Assembly (NCBI RefSeq): GCF_029919115.1
Contig: NZ_CP123990.1
Coordinates: 1,736,001 to 1,800,000, forward strand
DNA from: Variovorax paradoxus
Lineage (GTDB): Bacteria; Pseudomonadota; Gammaproteobacteria; Burkholderiales; Burkholderiaceae_C
Direction: 5' to 3'
DNA length: 64,000 nt
Of the stretch, positions 43,714 through 53,959 are shown in pieces. Position 1 is the first letter of the stretch. The number at the start of each line of letters is the position of its first letter. The translations under genes and the position numbers were made by a program. A model generated the notes under the pieces. The model had not been told where the DNA came from, did no database searches, and was given only the letters and a program-made list of their open reading frames with translations.

Positions 43714-44346
43714 TCAGGCCTTGGCTGCGGGCGCCGCCTGCCCAAGCGCGATCTTGAGCAGATCGGCCACGGTGTTGGCGTTGAGCTTTTCCATGATGTT
43801 GGCGCGGTGCGCCTCGACCGTCTTGATGCTGATGCCCAGGTCGTCGGCAATCTGCTTGTTCAGGCGGCCGGCGACGATGCGCTCGAGCACCTGGGCTTCG
43901 CGGCCGGTGAGCTTGGACAGGAGCGCGTCGCGGCTTGCCGACTGCTGGTGCTGGGTGAAGGCGCCGCGCGCGTGCTCGAGCATGCGCTCGACCAGCGTGA
44001 CGAGTTCTTCGTCGTTGAAGGGCTTCTGGATGAAATCCATGGCGCCCTTCTTCATGCTGTCGACTGCCATCGGCACGTCGCCGTGGCCGGTGATCACCAC
44101 GATGGGCAGCGGGGAGCGCCGCTCGATCAGCCGGTCTTGCAGCTCGAGGCCGGTCATGCCGGCCATGCGGATGTCGACGATCAGACAGGCGACTTCGCGC
44201 GGGTCGTATCGGGAAAGAAAGGACTCGGCGGAATCGAAGCAGCGAACCCTGTAGTCCTTGCCCTCGAGCAGCCATTGCAGCGAATCTCGTACGGCCTCGT
44301 CGTCGTCGACGACATAGACAGTGCCCTTCTTCGGAATCAAACTCAT
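43714..44346 (-). CDS. FixJ/NarL-type response regulator
   Basis: A 210-aa two-component response regulator. The receiver domain (about 8-125) has the acidic pair at Asp14-Asp16, the phospho-acceptor Asp58 in LIVDIRM and the Lys in DFIQKPF. The C-terminal LuxR-type helix-turn-helix (about 145-205) contains [20 protein letters not shown] and [16 protein letters not shown]. Its ATG overlaps the stop of the kinase gene (ATGA). FixJ, DctR and TodT belong to this group. Targets are unknown; the divergent aceE gene is one candidate. Confidence 0.94.
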
Positions 44347-46883
44347 GCAGGTACCTTTGCCTCGTCGCTTGCTACGGAACTGGGAGCGTCCAACACCGGA
44401 ATCCAGAAGGAAAAACGGCATCCGATCACATCCGGGCCATTGTAGATGTTCTCCGCCTGCATCCGTCCGCGGTGCGACTCGACGATGGTGCGGCACAGAT
44501 TCAGCCCGATGCCCATGCCTTCGGGCTTGGTGGAGAAGAAGGCCTCGTAGAGGCGGTCCATCACTTCAGGGGCCAGGCCCTTGCCGGTGTCCTGCACCGA
44601 GAACTCGATGGCGTTGTGGCCCTCGATCACCTTGGGCAGCACGCGCAGCTCCACGCTACGGCGCGCGAGCGGGCGCTCGGCAATGTCGATGGCTTCGGCC
44701 GCATTCTTCAGCAGGTTGACCATCACCTGCTCGATCAGGATGGGGTCCACGCGCACCACCGGTAGCCGCGCCGCCACATAGTGGTTGAGCCGCACATTGC
44801 GCCGCCGCAGCTCGATGCCCGCCAGTTCGACTGCCTCGCTCACCATGGTGGCCACGTCGGCGGGCGTGCGATTGGGCTCGCTGCGCTTCACGAAGGAGCG
44901 GATGCGCTGGATGATCTGGCCCGCGCGCTGCGCCTGCTTGGAGGTTTTTTCCAGCGCCGCGAGCAGCGCCTCGGTGTCGATCGATTGCCCCTTGATACGG
45001 GACATCATTCCGTTGCAGTAGTTGGTGATGGCCGTCAGCGGCTGGTTGAGCTCGTGCGCCACGCTGGAGGCCATTTCGCCCATCGTGATCAGGCGGCTTG
45101 CGGCCTGGGCGCGGTCGGCCTGCGCGGCCGCCTGTTCCTCGGCGTCGCGCCGCGGTGTGATGTCCGTGGCAATCACGAGCTGGGCTAGCCGGCCGTCGAC
45201 CCAGGTGAGGTAGCGCGAACGCACTTCGAGCCACTTGCCCAGGTGCGGCACGAAGATCTCGTTGTTGGCGGTCTGGGCGGCGGTCAGCGTATCAATCGGC
45301 AGGCCCGCGTAGGGGTCGACGTCGTCCAGGCCCTCGTCGTGCGCATTGGAGGCCGGCACGCCGGCCTGCGCCACCATGCCCAGGTGGCCCACGGTGTCGG
45401 AACCGAACCAGAGCCGGTACAGCTTGTTTGCGAACAGCAGCTCTTCGCTGCCGATGGGCGCCACCGACACCGCGGCGTCGAGCGCCTCCAGCACGGTAGT
45501 GAAGCGCTCGTAAGAAGCAGACAGCTGCTCGCGGATGCGCGTGGGCTCGGTGATGTCGGTCATCGAGGTCATCCAGCCCGTCTGGTGGCCGCGCGCATCG
45601 ATCAGCGGCGACACATACAGCCGTGCATTGAACACGCTGCCGTTCTTGCGCTTCACGCGCACCTGGAAGCCGCCGGGCAGGGCGCGGCCGTGCAGTTCTT
45701 CCTCGAGCCGCTCGTTCATGACTTCGCGGTCCGATTCCAGCCAGTAGGGGAAGGGCGGCGTCTGGCCTACCAGTTCGGCTTCGCTCCAGCCCGTCATCGC
45801 GCAGAAGGCGGCGTTCACGTAGGTGATGCGCCCCTGCAGGTCGAGCACGCGCATGCCGGTGAGCATGGAGTTTTCCATGGCGCGGCGGAAATTGGTCTCG
45901 GCAACCAGCCGTTGCTGCGCCTGTTGGCGCCGGCGGGTGTGCCGCCAGGTGCCGATCAGCATCCAGCTCGTGAGCACGCTGAGTGCGCAGACCAGCCAGA
46001 ACAAGCCATTGCCGACCACCCCCTGCGAGGTGCGGTAGGCCTGCGCGCGCAGCACCAGCGCGTTGCCGACGGGCGACACCGGCACTTCGTATTCGTTGGT
46101 TCTTTCGGACCACGGCAGCAGGCGCGTGCCGCCTTCCCTCGGGCTCACGGTGTTGCCCGCAATCGGATTGCCCTTGGCATCGAGCAGCGACACCGCATAG
46201 CGCGCCTGCACTTCCGATGGCATGCCGTAGCGCAGCAGGCCGTCGATCGAAAACTCGCCCAGCACCACGCCCGCGAACAGGCCCTGGTCGAAAAGCGGAA
46301 TGTGCAGCTGCAGCATCGCCGTCGGGTCGCCGCCTGCCATGGGCTGGGAGAACACCGGCTGGCGCAGCTCGCGCGCCAATGCGTAGTTGCTCTCGATGTC
46401 GCCTGGCCGCAGCACGTCGCCGATCAGGTGTTGCTGCGCCGGGTGCACGCTCGGCGCGGAATAGCCGGCCTTGAAGCGGCGGCGATCGTCGATCCAGGTG
46501 ACCGTCTGAAGCTCGGGGAACTGGCTCACCAGCGATTCCGCGCGGCTTGCGAACTCGACCGGATCGATTTCGCGGTTCGACGCGTCGCGCGCAATGCGCA
46601 TCAGCTGTTCCTGTCGTTCCAGGAGGCGCAGGCGCATGCGTTGCTGCGCGTATTCGACGTCGCGCCGAACCGATTCCTGCTCTCGCTCGACTTCCTCGGT
46701 GCGCAGGTACCAGAACGCCGAAACGATGGCGGCAAGAAACAGCAGCACCGCCGCAATGGGCGCGAGCATGGCAACTGCGTCTTGCAGCACCGGCGTTTGC
46801 CGGCGCCACCAGCGGCGCCACCAGGACAGAGGGGACGCATTCACGGCGCTGCGGGCCACCGCCAGCGGAGAGGAAAGAGGCAT
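44343..46883 (-). CDS. PAS-domain sensor histidine kinase (DctS/FixL-like)
   Basis: An 846-aa inner-membrane kinase. A first membrane helix (about residues 38-58) and a second (about 290-312) flank a periplasmic sensor domain of about 230 residues that resembles the DctS/cache type. Two PAS domains follow (about 330-450 and 460-590), then a HisKA domain with phospho-acceptor His610 in [13 protein letters not shown], and an ATPase domain with [14 protein letters not shown] and GMGIGL motifs. HELNQPL is the FixL/DctS-group H-box. It pairs with the overlapping regulator gene, and the two likely sense an external carboxylate. It is divergent from aceE. Confidence 0.93.
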
Positions 46884-47099: not shown

Positions 47100-49814
47100 A
47101 TGTCGGCAAATCCCGAGAACCTGTTCGGCTCGGCCGCGAACGACGCGGACGCCCAGGAGACCCGTGAATGGATGGATGCACTGTCCTCCGTTATTCAGAG
47201 CGAGGGGCCTGAGCGGGCTCACTTCCTTCTAGAGCAGTTGCTGGAACATGCGCGGCAGCACAGCATCGACAAGCCGTTCTCGGCCAATACGGCCTACGTC
47301 AACACCCTGGAGCCCGACCAGGAAGAGCGCTGCCCCGGCAACCTCGAAATCGAAGAGCGGCTGCGCGCCTACATGCGCTGGAACGCCATGGCCATGGTGG
47401 TCAAGGCCAATCGCCACCATCCGCCCGAAGGCGGTGACCTGGGCGGCCACATCGGCTCCTTTGCCTCGTTGGCGAACATGTTCGGCGCGGGCTTCAACCA
47501 CTTCTGGCACGCCGAGAGCGAAAACCACGGCGGGGATTGCCTCTACATCCAAGGCCACGTGTCCCCCGGCATTTATGCCCGCGCCTACCTGGAAGGCCGC
47601 CTGACCGAAGAGCAGCTGCTCAATTTCCGGCAGGAAGTCGACGGCAAGGGCCTGTCGAGCTACCCGCATCCGAAACTGATGCCCGAGTTCTGGCAATTTC
47701 CCACGGTCTCGATGGGCCTTGGGCCGCTGATGGCCATCTACCAGGCCCGTTTCCTCAAATACCTGCACGCCCGCGGCATTGCCAACACCGAGAACCGCAA
47801 GGTCTGGGTGTTCTGCGGCGACGGCGAAATGGACGAAGTCGAGTCGATGGGCGCCATTGGCCTGGCGGCGCGCGAGAAGCTCGACAACCTGATCTTCGTG
47901 ATCAACTGCAACCTGCAGCGCCTGGACGGCCCAGTGCGCGGCAACGGCAAGATCATCCAGGAACTCGAGGGTGAATTCCGCGGTTCGGGCTGGAACGTCA
48001 TCAAGCTGATCTGGGGCAGCAACTGGGATCCGCTGCTGGCGCGCGACAAGGAAGGTGCGCTGCGCAAGATCATGATGGAAACCAACGACGGCGACTATCA
48101 GGCCTTCAAGGCCAACGACGGCGCCTACGTTCGCAAGCATTTCTTCGGCCGCGACCCGCGCACGCTCGAGATGGTTTCCAAGATGAGCGACGACGACATT
48201 TGGCAGCTGCGCCGCGGCGGGCACGATTCGCAGAAGGTCTACGCCGCTTTCCATGCGGCCGTGAAGCACGAAGGCCAGCCCACGGTGCTCCTGATCAAGA
48301 CGGTCAAGGGCTTTGGCATGGGCAAGATCGGCGAGGGCAAGAACAACGTCCACCAGACCAAGAAGCTCAGCGACGAGGACATCATGGCCTTCCGCGACCG
48401 CTTCAACATTCCGATTCCGGACAGCAAGATTGCCGATCTGCCGTTCTACAAGCCGGCCGACGACACGCCGGAAATGAAGTACCTGCACGAGCGCCGCAAG
48501 GCCCTCGGCGGCTACCTGCCGCACCGCCGCACCAAGGCCGACGAGAGCTTCACGGTGCCTTCGCTCGACACCTTCAAGTCGGTGATGGAACCCACGGCCG
48601 AAGGCCGCGAGATCTCGACCACGCAGGCCTATGTGCGCTTCTTGACGCAGCTCTTGCGCGACAAGGCGCTGGGCCCGCGCGTGGTGCCCATCCTGGTGGA
48701 CGAGGCCCGCACCTTCGGCATGGAAGGGTTGTTCCGCCAGATCGGCATCTACAACCCCGCAGGCCAGCAGTACACACCGGTCGACAAGGACCAGGTCATG
48801 TACTACAAGGAAGACAAGGCCGGCCAGATCCTGCAGGAAGGCATCAACGAAGCCGGCGGCATGTCCAGCTGGATTGCCGCGGCCACGTCGTACAGCACCA
48901 ACAACCGCATCATGGTGCCGTTCTACGTGTACTACTCGATGTTCGGCTTCCAGCGTATCGGCGACCTGGCCTGGGCGGCCGGAGACATGCAGGCGCGCGG
49001 CTTCCTGCTGGGCGGTACGTCGGGGCGCACCACGCTCAACGGCGAAGGCCTGCAGCACGAAGATGGCCACAGCCACATCCTGGCCAACACCATTCCCAAC
49101 TGCGTGAGCTACGACCCGACCTTCGCGCACGAAGTGGGCGTGATCCTGCACCATGGCCTGAAGCGCATGGTCGAGAAGCAGGACAACGTCTATTACTACC
49201 TGACGCTGCTCAACGAGAACTACCCGATGCCCGGCCTGCAACCCGGCACTGAAGAGCAGATCATCAAGGGCATGTACCTGTCGAAGCAGGGCCCCGCGCT
49301 CAAGGCCAAGGCACCCACGGTGCAGCTGCTGGGCAGCGGCACCATCCTGCGCGAAAGCTTTGCCGCGCAGGAACTGCTCGAGAAGGACTGGGGCGTGTCG
49401 GCTTCCGTGTGGAGCTGCCCGAGCTTCAACGAGCTGACGCGCGACGGCCAGGACGCCGACCGCTGGAACCTGCTGCACCCCGACCAGACGCCGCGCGTGC
49501 CTTTCGTGGCCGAGCAGCTCTCGCCGACCACCGGCCCGGTGATCGCGTCGACCGACTACATGAAGGCGTACGCGGAGCAGATCCGCCCCTTCATTCCGAA
49601 GGGCCGCAACTACAAGGTGCTGGGCACCGATGGCTTCGGCCGCAGCGACTTCCGCAACAAGCTGCGCGAGCACTTCGAAATCAACCGCCACTACATCGTG
49701 GTGGCCGCGCTCAAGGCGCTGAGCGAAGATGGCACAGTGCCCGTGGCCAAGGTGGTTGAAGCGATCAAGAAGTACGGCATCAATGTCGACAAGGTCAATC
49801 CGCTTTACGCCTGA
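47100..49814 (+). CDS. aceE: Pyruvate dehydrogenase E1 component, homodimeric
   Basis: ThDP-dependent E1 of the pyruvate dehydrogenase complex; it decarboxylates pyruvate and acetylates the lipoyl groups of E2. The 904-aa protein is of the single-chain Gram-negative type: [18 protein letters not shown], the ThDP motif region [30 protein letters not shown] and, in the second half, [19 protein letters not shown] with the catalytic-site His residues. AGGAGAG precedes the ATG by about 7 bases. It is the first gene of an aceE-aceF-BPH-lpd operon. Confidence 0.98.
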
Positions 49815-49863
49815 ACATCAACAACCAACGAACGAACGGCGCCTCACGGCGGGAGACAACGAT

Positions 49864-51549
49864 ATGGCAGCAGTGGAAGTGAAGGTGCCGGACATCGGCG
49901 ATTTCGATGAAGTCGCGGTGATCGAGGTGCTTGTGAAGGTGGGCGACACGGTCAAGGCCGAGCAGTCGCTCATCACCGTGGAATCGGACAAGGCGTCGAT
50001 GGAGATTCCGTCGTCGACCGCCGGTGTGGTGAAAGAAATCAAGGTCGAGGTCGGCGGCAAGGTGAAAGAGGGCTCCGTGGTCCTCGTGCTCGAGGCCGAA
50101 GGGGCTGCGGCGGCACCGGCTTCGGCGCCTGCAGCCGCTGCGGCTCCTGCGGCTGCCGCACCGGCGCCCGCAGCCGCGGCGCCTGCTCCGGCTGCCGCGC
50201 CTGCGGCTTCGGGCCCCATCGAAATCAAGGTGCCCGACATCGGCGATTTCAAGGATGTCGCGGTCATCGAGTTGCTGGTGAAACCCGGCGACACCATCGC
50301 GGCCGACCAGTCGCTCATCACCGTCGAATCGGACAAGGCCTCGATGGAAATTCCGTCGTCGGCTGCAGGCGTGCTCAAGGAGCTCAAGGTCAAGGTGGGC
50401 GACACGGTCAATATCGGTGACCTGATTGCCGTGCTGGAAGGCGCCGCAGGTGGTGCGGCCCCTGCGCCTGCGCCCGCGCAGGCTGCTGCAGCCGCTGCGC
50501 CGGCAACGGCGACCGCCAGTGTGCCAACTCCGGTTGCCGCTCCATCGGCGGCCGCTGCAACTCCGCCAGCTGCTGCCGCACCGCACGAACCCACTGTGGC
50601 GCCCACCGGCAAGCTGCCGCACGCTTCTCCCTCGGTGCGCAAGTTCGCCCGCGAACTCGGCGTGCCGCTCGAAGAGGTCAAGGGCTCCGGTCCCAAGGGC
50701 CGCATCACCCAGGAAGACGTCCAGGGCTTCACCAAGGCCGTGATGAGCGGCCAGGCCAGCACCAAGGCATCCGCAGCCAAGGCGCCAGCCGGTGGCGGCA
50801 GCGCGGACGGCGCGGCATTGGGCCTCATTCCGTGGCCGAAGGTCGACTTTGCGAAGTTCGGCGCTGTCGAGCGCAAGGACCTGTCGCGCATCAAGAAGCT
50901 CAGCGGTGCCAACCTGCACCGCAACTGGGTGATGATTCCGCACGTCACCAACAACGACGAAGCCGACATCACCGAGCTCGAAGCCTTCCGCGTTTCCACC
51001 AACAAGGAAAACGAAAAGTCGGGCATCAAGGTCACGATGCTCGCCTTCGTGATCAAGGCGGTGGTTGCCGCGCTCAAGAAGTTTCCTGACTTCAACGCCA
51101 GCCTCGACGGCGACCAGCTCGTCTACAAGCAGTACTACAACATCGGCTTTGCGGCCGACACGCCCAACGGGCTCGTGGTGCCGGTGCTGAAGGACGCGGA
51201 CAAGAAGGGCATCCTGCAGATCAGCGCGGAGATGGGTGAACTCGCCAAGAAGGCGCGGGACGGCAAGCTCGGCTCGGCCGACATGCAGGGCGGCTGCTTC
51301 TCGATCAGCTCGCTCGGCGGCATCGGCGGCACGCATTTCACGCCCATCATCAATGCCCCCGAAGTGGCCATCCTCGGCCTCTCCAAGGGCCAGATGAAGC
51401 CGGTGTGGGACGGCAAGCAGTTTGTGCCGCGCCTGACGCTGCCGCTGTCGCTGTCCTACGACCACCGCGTGATCGATGGTGCCCTGGCTGCGCGCTTCAA
51501 CGCCTACCTGGGGCAAGTGCTCGCGGACTATCGCCGAATCCTGCTATGA
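49864..51549 (+). CDS. aceF: Pyruvate dehydrogenase E2 component, dihydrolipoyl acetyltransferase
   Basis: Core of the pyruvate dehydrogenase complex. The 561-aa chain has two lipoyl domains (about 1-80 and 117-195) with lipoyl Lys43 and Lys158 in ESDKAS, each followed by an Ala/Pro-rich flexible linker. Next come a peripheral-subunit-binding domain ([20 protein letters not shown], about 260-295) and a catalytic domain ending in [15 protein letters not shown] with the active-site His. The ATG at 49864 follows a GGGAGA ribosome site. Its stop overlaps the start of the next gene (ATGA at 51546-51549). Confidence 0.97.
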
Positions 51550-52139
51550 CCACCGTAGCGGCCGTCCGCAAAGGCGGCCAGGTCACGATGGCGGCGGATT
51601 CGCTGGTGACCTTCGGCGACACGCGGCTTTCGCACCGCGCCGAGGCAAACCAGAAGATCTTCACCATCGACGATGCGGCGGGGCAGAGCCTGTTTGCCGT
51701 GGCCGGGGCTGCTGCGCACTTCCTGGTGCTGCAGCATGCGCTGGCCGCGCAGCCGCGCGAGGCGCTGCTGTTCGGCAGCAAGCACGAGATCTTCCGCACC
51801 TTCACGCTGCTGCACCCGGTGCTGAAAGACTCGTTCTTCATGCAGACCAAGGAAGACGAGCATGAGCCCTACGAGTCGAGCCAGTTCACGATGCTGATGG
51901 CCAACCAGAGCGGCATCTACGGCATCTACAGCTACCGCGAGGTGTTCGAGTTCAAGCAGTTCTGGGCCATTGGCTCGGGGCGCAGCTTTGCACTTGGCGC
52001 CATGCACGCGGCCTACGACATGAAGTCGCGCACCTCGCGCGACGTGGCGGAAGCAGGGATTGCCGCCGCCTGCGAATTCGATCGCAATTCGGCCCCACCG
52101 GTCGACGTTCTCACACTCAAACTGAAAGTGTCCAAATGA
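51546..52139 (+). CDS. Proteasome/HslV-like N-terminal-Thr peptidase (BPH family)
   Basis: A 197-aa Ntn-hydrolase of the proteasome-beta/HslV superfamily. It starts MTT, so removal of Met exposes the nucleophile Thr1. Asp17 (AADSLV) is at the canonical position and Lys36 (NQKIF) takes the place of Lys33. IGSG with Ser143 (mature numbering) matches the conserved SGG site, and a long C-terminal helix with [16 protein letters not shown] fits. It is not HslV, which lies beside hslU; it best fits the betaproteobacterial proteasome homologue, BPH. It overlaps aceF and lpd by ATGA on both sides, so it is translated with the pyruvate dehydrogenase genes. No ATPase partner is in the window. Substrate unknown. 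Confidence 0.8.
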
Positions 52140-53959
52140 GCGAACAACAAATCAAGGTGCCGGACATCGGCGACTTCGACGAAGTCGCGGTCATCGAGGT
52201 GCTCGTCAATGTCGGCGACACGGTCAAGGCCGAGCAGTCGCTGATCACGGTCGAGTCGGACAAGGCCTCGATGGAAATTCCATCGTCGGCCGCCGGCGTG
52301 GTGAAGTCGCTCGCCGTCAAAGTGGGCGACAAGGTCAAGGAAGGCTCCGTGGTGCTGACGCTGGAGGTGGACGGTGCCGCAGCGCCCGCGCCCGCAGCAG
52401 CCGCTCCTGCGCCAGCCGCCGCGGCGCCCGCCCCCAAGGCGGCTCTCGCACCGGCTCCGGCTGCAGCGCCCGTCGCGTCCACCTATGGCGGCAAGGTCGA
52501 TGTCGAGTGCGACGTCGTCGTGCTCGGCGCCGGCCCTGGCGGCTATTCGGCCGCATTCCGCGCTGCCGACCTCGGCCTGAAGGTCGTGCTCATCGAACGC
52601 TATGCCACGCTGGGCGGCGTGTGCCTGAACGTGGGCTGCATCCCATCGAAAGCGCTGCTGCACGTGGCCTCGGTCATGGACGAGGTCAAGCACTTCGCCG
52701 ACCTTGGCGTGAGCTTTGCGGCGCCCACGGTCGACCGCGCCAAGCTGCTCGGCCACAAGAACAAGGTGGTGGGCAAGCTCACCGGCGGCCTCACGGCCAT
52801 GGCCAAGATGCGCAAGGTGACGGTGCTGCGCGGCGTCGGCAACTTCATCGACCCCTACCACCTGGAAGTGGACGAGACGTCCGGCACCAGCTGGGACACC
52901 ACCGGCAAGAAGCAGACCGTCAAGTTCCGCAACGCCATCATCGCGGCCGGTTCGCAGGCCGTGAGCCTGCCGTTCATGCCGAAGAACGATCCGCGCGTGG
53001 TCGACTCCACCGGCGCGCTCGAGATGGGCACCGATCCCAAGCGCATGCTGATCCTGGGCGGCGGCATCATCGGCCTGGAGATGGGCACGGTGTATTCCAC
53101 CCTCGGCGCTCGGCTCGACGTGGTCGAAATGCTCGACGGCCTGATGCAGGGCGCCGACCGCGACCTGGTCAAGGTGTGGCAGAAGATGAATGCGCCGCGC
53201 TTCGACAACATCATGCTCAAGACCAAGACGGTCGGCGCCGAAGCCACGAAAGAGGGCATCAAGGTCACCTTCGAGGGCGAGAACGCACCCAAGGAACCGC
53301 AGGTGTACGACCTGGTGCTGCAGGCCGTGGGCCGCAGCCCCAACGGCAAGAAGATCGGCGCCGAGAAGGCCGGCGTGACGGTGAGCGACCGCGGCTTCAT
53401 TCCGGTCGACATCCAGATGCGCACCAACGTGCCCCACATCTTCGCCATCGGCGACATCGTGGGCCAGCCCATGCTGGCGCACAAGGCGGTGCACGAGGCG
53501 CATGTGGCGGCCGAGGTGATTGCCGGCGAGCAGAAGGGCGACAAGGAGCTTTCGAGCGCCGCCTTCAACGCCCGCGTGATCCCGAGCGTTGCCTATACCG
53601 ACCCCGAGGTGGCGTGGGTCGGCCTCACGGAAGACCAGGCCAAGGCAGAAGGCATCAAGATCAAGAAGGGCCACTTCCCGTGGAACGCCTCGGGCCGGGC
53701 CATTGCCAACGGCCGGGACGAGGGCTTCACCAAGCTGCTGTTCGACGCCGAGACGCATCGCATTCTTGGGGGCGGCATCGTGGGCACGCACGCCGGCGAC
53801 ATGCTCGGCGAAATCGCGCTGGCCATTGAAATGGGCGCCGACGAAATCGACATCGGCAAGACCATTCACCCGCATCCGACCCTGGGCGAAAGCATCGGCA
53901 TGGCGGCCGAGGTGGCGCACGGTACCTGTACCGACTTGCCGCCAGTAAAGAAGGCCTGA
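52136..53959 (+). CDS. lpdA: Dihydrolipoamide dehydrogenase (E3) with N-terminal lipoyl domain
   Basis: Reoxidises the dihydrolipoyl groups of the pyruvate dehydrogenase complex with NAD. The 607-aa chain begins with a lipoyl domain (about 1-80, Lys43 in ESDKAS) almost identical to the first lipoyl domain of aceF, then an Ala/Pro linker, then the flavoprotein from about 120: FAD motif [17 protein letters not shown], redox pair Cys163/Cys168 ([13 protein letters not shown]), NAD motif [11 protein letters not shown] and interface His-Glu near HPHPTLGE. E3 with its own lipoyl domain is known in betaproteobacteria and Neisseria. Its ATG overlaps the peptidase stop. Confidence 0.97.

Follow-up and report, generated by a model that had tools for sequence, protein, structure and literature searches.

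Bacterial (or betaproteobacterial) proteasome homologs (BPHs) are N-terminal-Thr hydrolases of the proteasome fold, and the closest described relative of the gene considered here was placed by Fuchs et al. (2017) in the pyruvate dehydrogenase (PDC) operon of Cupriavidus metallidurans (PMC5777263). The sections of that paper covered here give three prevailing contexts for BPH genes: argG, three PDC genes (as in C. metallidurans), and hsp33. They describe a tetradecameric double ring with active sites facing inward, and removal of the initiator Met as demonstrated by mass spectrometry. The active site reacts covalently with epoxomicin and MG132, and an epoxomicin adduct of the Thiobacillus denitrificans BPH supports the assignment of Thr1 as the catalytic residue; the two BPHs assayed were inert on casein and standard peptides. 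In pull-downs from C. metallidurans neither PDC subunits nor HslU co-purified with BPH, and carbonylation patterns were unaltered with BPH. According to the parts of a 2021 survey covered here, BPH has no known unfoldase partner, and connectase, another protein with the proteasome fold, is a ligase (PMC8665760). A search of the open-licence literature returned no further papers that treat BPH together with PDC.

The window analysed here, a 64,000-nucleotide stretch of the Variovorax paradoxus genome, contains a compact run of four genes, all on the + strand. The first is aceE (47100..49814), encoding pyruvate dehydrogenase E1 of the homodimeric type (NCBIfam TIGR00759, scoring 1427.6 bits where the cut-off is 859.9). 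It is followed by aceF (49864..51549), encoding the E2 dihydrolipoyllysine acetyltransferase (TIGR01348, 759.2 vs. 552.1 bits) with two lipoyl domains, seen as two stretches matching Pfam Biotin_lipoyl; family calls were made on 49861-51549 and the start was taken as 49864. A gene for a 197-residue protein comes next (51546..52139), and lpd (52136..53959) completes the run, encoding the E3 dihydrolipoyl dehydrogenase (TIGR01350, 477.2 vs. 408.8 bits) with an N-terminal lipoyl domain (Biotin_lipoyl at residues 5-76). The third gene overlaps both neighbors in an ATGA: its start ATG and the aceF stop TGA share positions 51546..51549, and its stop TGA and the lpd start ATG share 52136..52139, both on the + strand. 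Gene spacing suggests that the operon is co-transcribed. No sigma-70-type promoter was returned between 46880 and 54100 by a promoter scan, and the promoter/terminator scan gave no more than would arise by chance. Divergent from and upstream of aceE lies a gene for a PAS/HisKA/HATPase sensor kinase (44343-46883, - strand), which might act as a regulator of the operon.

The 197-residue protein begins MTT. There is no propeptide: the Thr stands directly behind the initiator Met, whose ATG overlaps the aceF stop, and its codon occupies 51549..51551 (+ strand). Besides an IGSG motif the protein has, when numbered without the Met, Thr at position 1, Asp at 17 and Lys at 36. A sequence-only reading of this DNA had proposed a BPH-type N-terminal-Thr hydrolase between aceF and lpd, with these residues and with ATGA overlaps on both sides; translation, the PF00227 and PDB 5ovu matches, the TIGR calls for the neighboring genes and the nucleotide sequence confirm each of these points.

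By sequence and predicted fold the protein is a BPH, and not HslV or a 20S beta subunit, because its closest sequence and fold matches are solved BPHs and it misses the curated HslV and 20S cut-offs. It passes the Pfam Proteasome model PF00227 with 41.6 bits (cut-off 22.4). In a PDB sequence search, which was also run in a profile version, it matched C. metallidurans 5ovu at E 2.2e-58 and T. denitrificans 5ovs at E 1.8e-31, with HslV first appearing behind both BPHs at 2.4e-05. Structure prediction, proposed earlier as a check on the fold, gave an AlphaFold2 model (monomer only) with a mean pLDDT of 88.5 and a pTM of 0.85, for which Foldseek ranks 1-6 were all BPH chains, with 5ovu, 5ovt and 5ovs at the top. 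Identification as HslV was rejected, as scores of 37.4 vs. 157.75 and 39.4 vs. 137 bits lie far under the NCBIfam cut-offs, and the same applies to 20S or archaeal beta subunits (14.9 vs. 191.9 and 36.9 vs. 224 bits). Among named relatives the nearest are Variovorax proteins, from Variovorax sp. H27-G14 (95% identity) and V. beijingensis (97%), and the organism's own genome (5.81 Mb, single contig) contains one match to the 197-residue protein. Several orthologues that match PF00227 (P0002, P0008, P0009, P0024, P0041 and others) carry the name "MFS transporter" in NCBI and UniRef, a label that is apparently a propagated misannotation.

Cm-BPH (Rmet_1198; 5ovu) belongs to the same family and also resides in a PDC operon (PMC5777263, in the sections covered). 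It ranked first in the Foldseek search with 49% identity over 192 columns, and the two proteins have in common Thr1, Asp17, an aligned Lys at 36 and a long acidic pore loop. The loop, between H2 and S7, reads TKEDEHEPY in the window protein, a net three acidic residues by hand count, whereas five successive acidic residues are described for Cm-BPH. Its residues 101-110 have a mean pLDDT of 52 in the AlphaFold2 model, and mean loop acidity across the loci surveyed below was 3.1 when PDC-linked and 4.6 in the others. The gene junctions also differ: both are ATGA in the window, whereas at L010 and L012, the loci nearest Cm-BPH as judged by eye, gaps of 168 and 72 nt separate BPH from aceF and gaps of 39 and 33 nt separate it from lpd. 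The T. denitrificans BPH (5ovs, 5ovt) agrees with the window protein in fold and in its catalytic residues (over 192 columns the identity is 35%; TM-score 0.85 on the query), but according to the covered sections of PMC5777263 it is encoded in an argG operon and has Lys-37, compared with the PDC operon and Lys-36 of the window protein.

More distant relatives include HslV (ClpQ), which has the same proteasome beta-like fold and Thr1; Foldseek TM-scores on the query were ∼0.5-0.7 for the HslV chains listed, and in contrast to HslV no hslU adjoins the window BPH. Anbu and the 20S beta subunits fall in the common superfamily (PF00227). Three proteasome-family genes were seen in the V. paradoxus genome: BPH and two loci outside the window, L246 and L248, at C1:4744871 and C1:3800503. 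We take one to be HslV-like, a separate gene with a stronger proteasome-family match and an apparently HslU-like ORF beside it, both named by eye from the translation; L248 is presumably an Anbu-like ORF, judged from its sequence. Compensation by BPH for a lost HslV was considered and found unsupported. Presumed HslV matches, taken as proteasome-family matches with E below 1e-15 and counted by eye, occurred in 23/27 genomes of the family that have BPH and in 22/26 that lack it, giving no sign that BPH substitutes for HslV.

The catalytic residues are nearly invariant. Across the 216 loci described below, Thr1 is found in 213 (Ser in 3) and Asp17 in 212 (Glu in 4), Lys36 and Gly53 are present in all 216, and the Ser of IGSG is kept in 198. 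In ten hand-chosen pairs, dN/dS values (Nei-Gojobori) of 0.03-0.34 were obtained in every case, indicating purifying selection. Together with the conserved catalytic residues and the matches in many genomes of the order and family (see below), this argues that the BPH gene is real, constrained and apparently functional. The offset of the Lys from its classical proteasome position, noted earlier, is real; its interpretation as an inserted turn special to this protein was rejected, since the residue aligns there in 216/216 loci, and in T. denitrificans BPH Lys-37 is listed as the counterpart of proteasomal Lys-33 (PMC5777263, in the sections covered).

Near-invariance of the catalytic residues would also be expected if BPH were an N-terminal-nucleophile enzyme other than a protease, for instance a transpeptidase or amidase comparable to the connectase ligase, acting on one substrate common to BPH-bearing bacteria. 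The published assays described above are consistent with such an activity, as neither casein nor standard peptides were cleaved by BPH though its Thr1 reacts with epoxomicin (PMC5777263, sections covered), and connectase offers a precedent for ligation by a proteasome fold (PMC8665760, parts covered). The published ring, however, with its inward-facing active sites, points to a protease-like chamber, and BPH has no known substrate or partner. We regard this explanation as unlikely. The term "peptidase" is itself not proven for BPH, given that the published assays of two BPHs found no proteolysis (PMC5777263, sections covered).

Genomic context was surveyed in two sets of 399 genomes, one from the order and one from the family, each drawn evenly from larger groups, with matches accepted at E 1e-5 or better. 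BPH matches were found in 151/399 order genomes and 99/399 family genomes, or 246 genomes after subtraction of 4 shared between the draws, and 216 loci were fetched (126 of the 151 from the order draw and 94 of the 99 from the family draw, 4 being common to both). From the order draw, 25/151 loci were left out because they ranked low, lay at a contig end or were incompletely listed; from the family draw, 5/99 were left out because the match was split or lay at a contig end. When the flanks were searched by tblastn, 106 of the 216 loci proved to be PDC-linked, 105 of them with aceF upstream and lpd downstream; at L112 aceF only was found, the contig ending there, and at L109 lpd lies downstream with its start codon unplaced. 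All 94 fetched loci from the family of the window organism were PDC-linked. In the order draw this was true for 16/126, and outside the window's family for 12/122 loci, spread over six other family groups. A further set of named relatives, the best 80 of 515 matches, included 79 loci with both aceF and lpd and one cut at the contig start; these are close relatives (Variovorax, Xenophilus, Polaromonas, Ramlibacter, Caenimonas, Curvibacter, and Comamonadaceae or Burkholderiales bins). A survey of Burkholderiales for aceF-BPH-lpd adjacency had been suggested as a check on the sequence-only reading, with unrelated neighbors in most relatives counting against that reading. The adjacency holds throughout the fetched loci of the family, but in the order draw 110/126 fetched loci are not beside aceF or lpd, which goes against the reading by its own test.

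Of these 110 non-PDC loci, 99 lie near hslO, argG or hslR. The hslO gene is downstream in 55 (within 120 bases in 49, at 509-603 bases in 6), argG is upstream in 31, and hslR is downstream in 13, in each case within 48 bases. Two of the remaining loci have gluQ only, and nine have none of hslO, argG, hslR or gluQ. Representatives of the context genes were confirmed by NCBIfam, except that the Hsp15 representative scored 110.8 bits against a cut-off of 148. Two details of these contexts are recorded here as side observations. The hslR (Hsp15) context, seen at L178, L169 and 11 more loci (13/216), is unnamed in the sections of PMC5777263 covered here; hslO and hslR together make two heat-shock neighbors of BPH. 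In the argG context, yajQ (cyclic di-GMP-binding family) follows BPH in L187 and 28 more loci (29/216, among the 31 with argG), while the published description of that context, in the sections covered, names argG, argD and argF only.

The ATGA overlaps had been read as a double coupling that ties BPH to E2 and E3. Among the 106 PDC-linked loci, a 4-base overlap was found at the aceF/BPH junction in 27, at the BPH/lpd junction in 27 (the lpd start having been placed in 104), and at both together in 11; elsewhere the gap to aceF can be as long as 258 bases and that to lpd as long as 166. Variovorax commonly has the double overlap (29/32 named loci, taken from the set of the best 80 of 515 matches), but the idea that PDC-linked BPH genes keep it as a general rule was rejected. 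By the same kind of estimate, 4-base overlaps were also found at 13/55 hslO, 1/13 hslR and 6/29 yajQ junctions, so tight junctions mark no special tie to PDC.

AceF was searched for in 30 genomes without BPH, 27 from the family and 3 from other families; 29 matched and one of those was without downstream sequence, leaving 28. In 25/28, the lpd start, placed by the lipoyl domain, lies -4 to 96 bases past the aceF stop with nothing BPH-like (E<1) in between; in a BPH-lacking genome of the same genus the gap is 13 bases. The aceF-lpd pair is intact in these genomes, indicating that the operon does not need BPH. In 2/28 (L230 and L240) ORFs that do not resemble BPH, with open frames 309 and 265 aa long, lie in the junction, which has thus taken in other genes. 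In the last genome no lpd was found within 1497 bases downstream of aceF.

These results bear on the proposal that BPH acts on the PDC itself, removing lipoyl-linker fragments or E2/E3 subunits that are oxidised or have lost their partners, with the shared operon keeping enzyme and protease matched. The single slot occupied in all 106 PDC-linked loci, with no row of the corresponding tree group placed elsewhere, would fit such a role, as would the paired overlaps of the Variovorax loci. Set against this are the persistence of aceF-lpd without BPH, the 110 order-draw BPHs outside PDC operons, the other ORFs at L230 and L240, and the C. metallidurans experiments, in which pull-downs contained no PDC subunits and carbonylation was unaltered (PMC5777263, in the sections covered). 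A PDC-directed role is possible but is not favored: the experiments in one relative speak directly against it, and we found no positive biochemical evidence. We consider its probability low. Involvement of BPH in processing or turnover of the complex, as suggested in the sequence-only reading, is not supported, in view of the absence of BPH from intact aceF-lpd operons, its inertness on the substrates tested and the pull-down results. Both the operon location and a test of PDC binding, which detected none, are in print (PMC5777263, in the sections covered). The aceF-BPH-lpd arrangement is already known, and a novel system was rejected on the same grounds.

The history of the PDC slot was examined on a tree of 96 of the 216 proteins, a sample spread over families, by a quick search with no bootstrap; the length filter removed 0/216. 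A single branch separates all 30 PDC-linked rows from the rest (SH-aLRT 94, just under the starred level), corresponding to 1 change. The argG rows likewise form one group (SH-aLRT 99, 1 change). HslO labels required 3 changes, HslR labels 2 and "other" labels 3, and all five labels together required 7 changes (least possible 4). No row of the PDC group is placed elsewhere, while BPH has moved to some extent in the hslO and hslR groups; these two slots are less firm than those at PDC and argG. The pattern of PDC linkage is as one move would give, in a count that cannot tell gain from loss. The slot is not clearly special, as other BPH clades are also slow to change neighbors, and its fixity is therefore weak evidence for a role in the PDC.

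A single change on the tree, and the slow turnover of neighbors in other clades, would also fit a neutral slot, that is, a single landing between aceF and lpd that was kept since operons rarely rearrange, with expression level irrelevant. Clean empty junctions, and the lack of a match in 300/399 family genomes at the threshold used, agree with this account; purifying selection indicates that the protein is important but says nothing of that kind about its position. We judge a neutral slot to be very unlikely. Also very unlikely, in our estimation, is that in the PDC-slot lineage BPH turned into a dedicated PDC quality-control or processing enzyme acting transiently or under oxidative stress. 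If true, this would explain why pull-downs missed the interaction, the lack of any other BPH site seen in the clade and the ATGA tightening in Variovorax.

We favor, as the probable explanation, an ordinary intact BPH, an ATP-independent peptidase ring of narrow specificity, that came to occupy the PDC slot by one ancestral move and there obtains high housekeeping expression. The presence of BPH in the PDC operon would result from a single transfer of the gene into the aceF-lpd junction in a Burkholderiales lineage, and high expression from this operon may be the reason for its location. In Variovorax, the tight ATGA junctions could make translation of BPH follow that of aceF. By analogy with the published relatives, the initiator Met of the window protein would be lost to expose a reactive Thr1, and the most likely assembly is a homo-tetradecamer, a double ring of 14 subunits that has no partner ATPase. 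Small or unfolded substrates entering past the acidic loop would then be hydrolysed at Thr1 without ATP, and the role of the ring in the cell may be housekeeping or stress proteostasis.

BPH combines a proteasome-like ring and a reactive Thr1 with no known substrate or partner ATPase in the parts of the literature covered. Our survey adds scale to a known arrangement and flags the "MFS transporter" error in databases. It also limits what gene context says about this family: BPH clades (PDC, Hsp33, ArgG-YajQ and Hsp15) rarely switch neighbors, and, given the many BPH-less genomes in which aceF-lpd is intact, the PDC slot alone does not establish a functional link. Taken together, these data suggest shared expression rather than a job inside the PDC complex.
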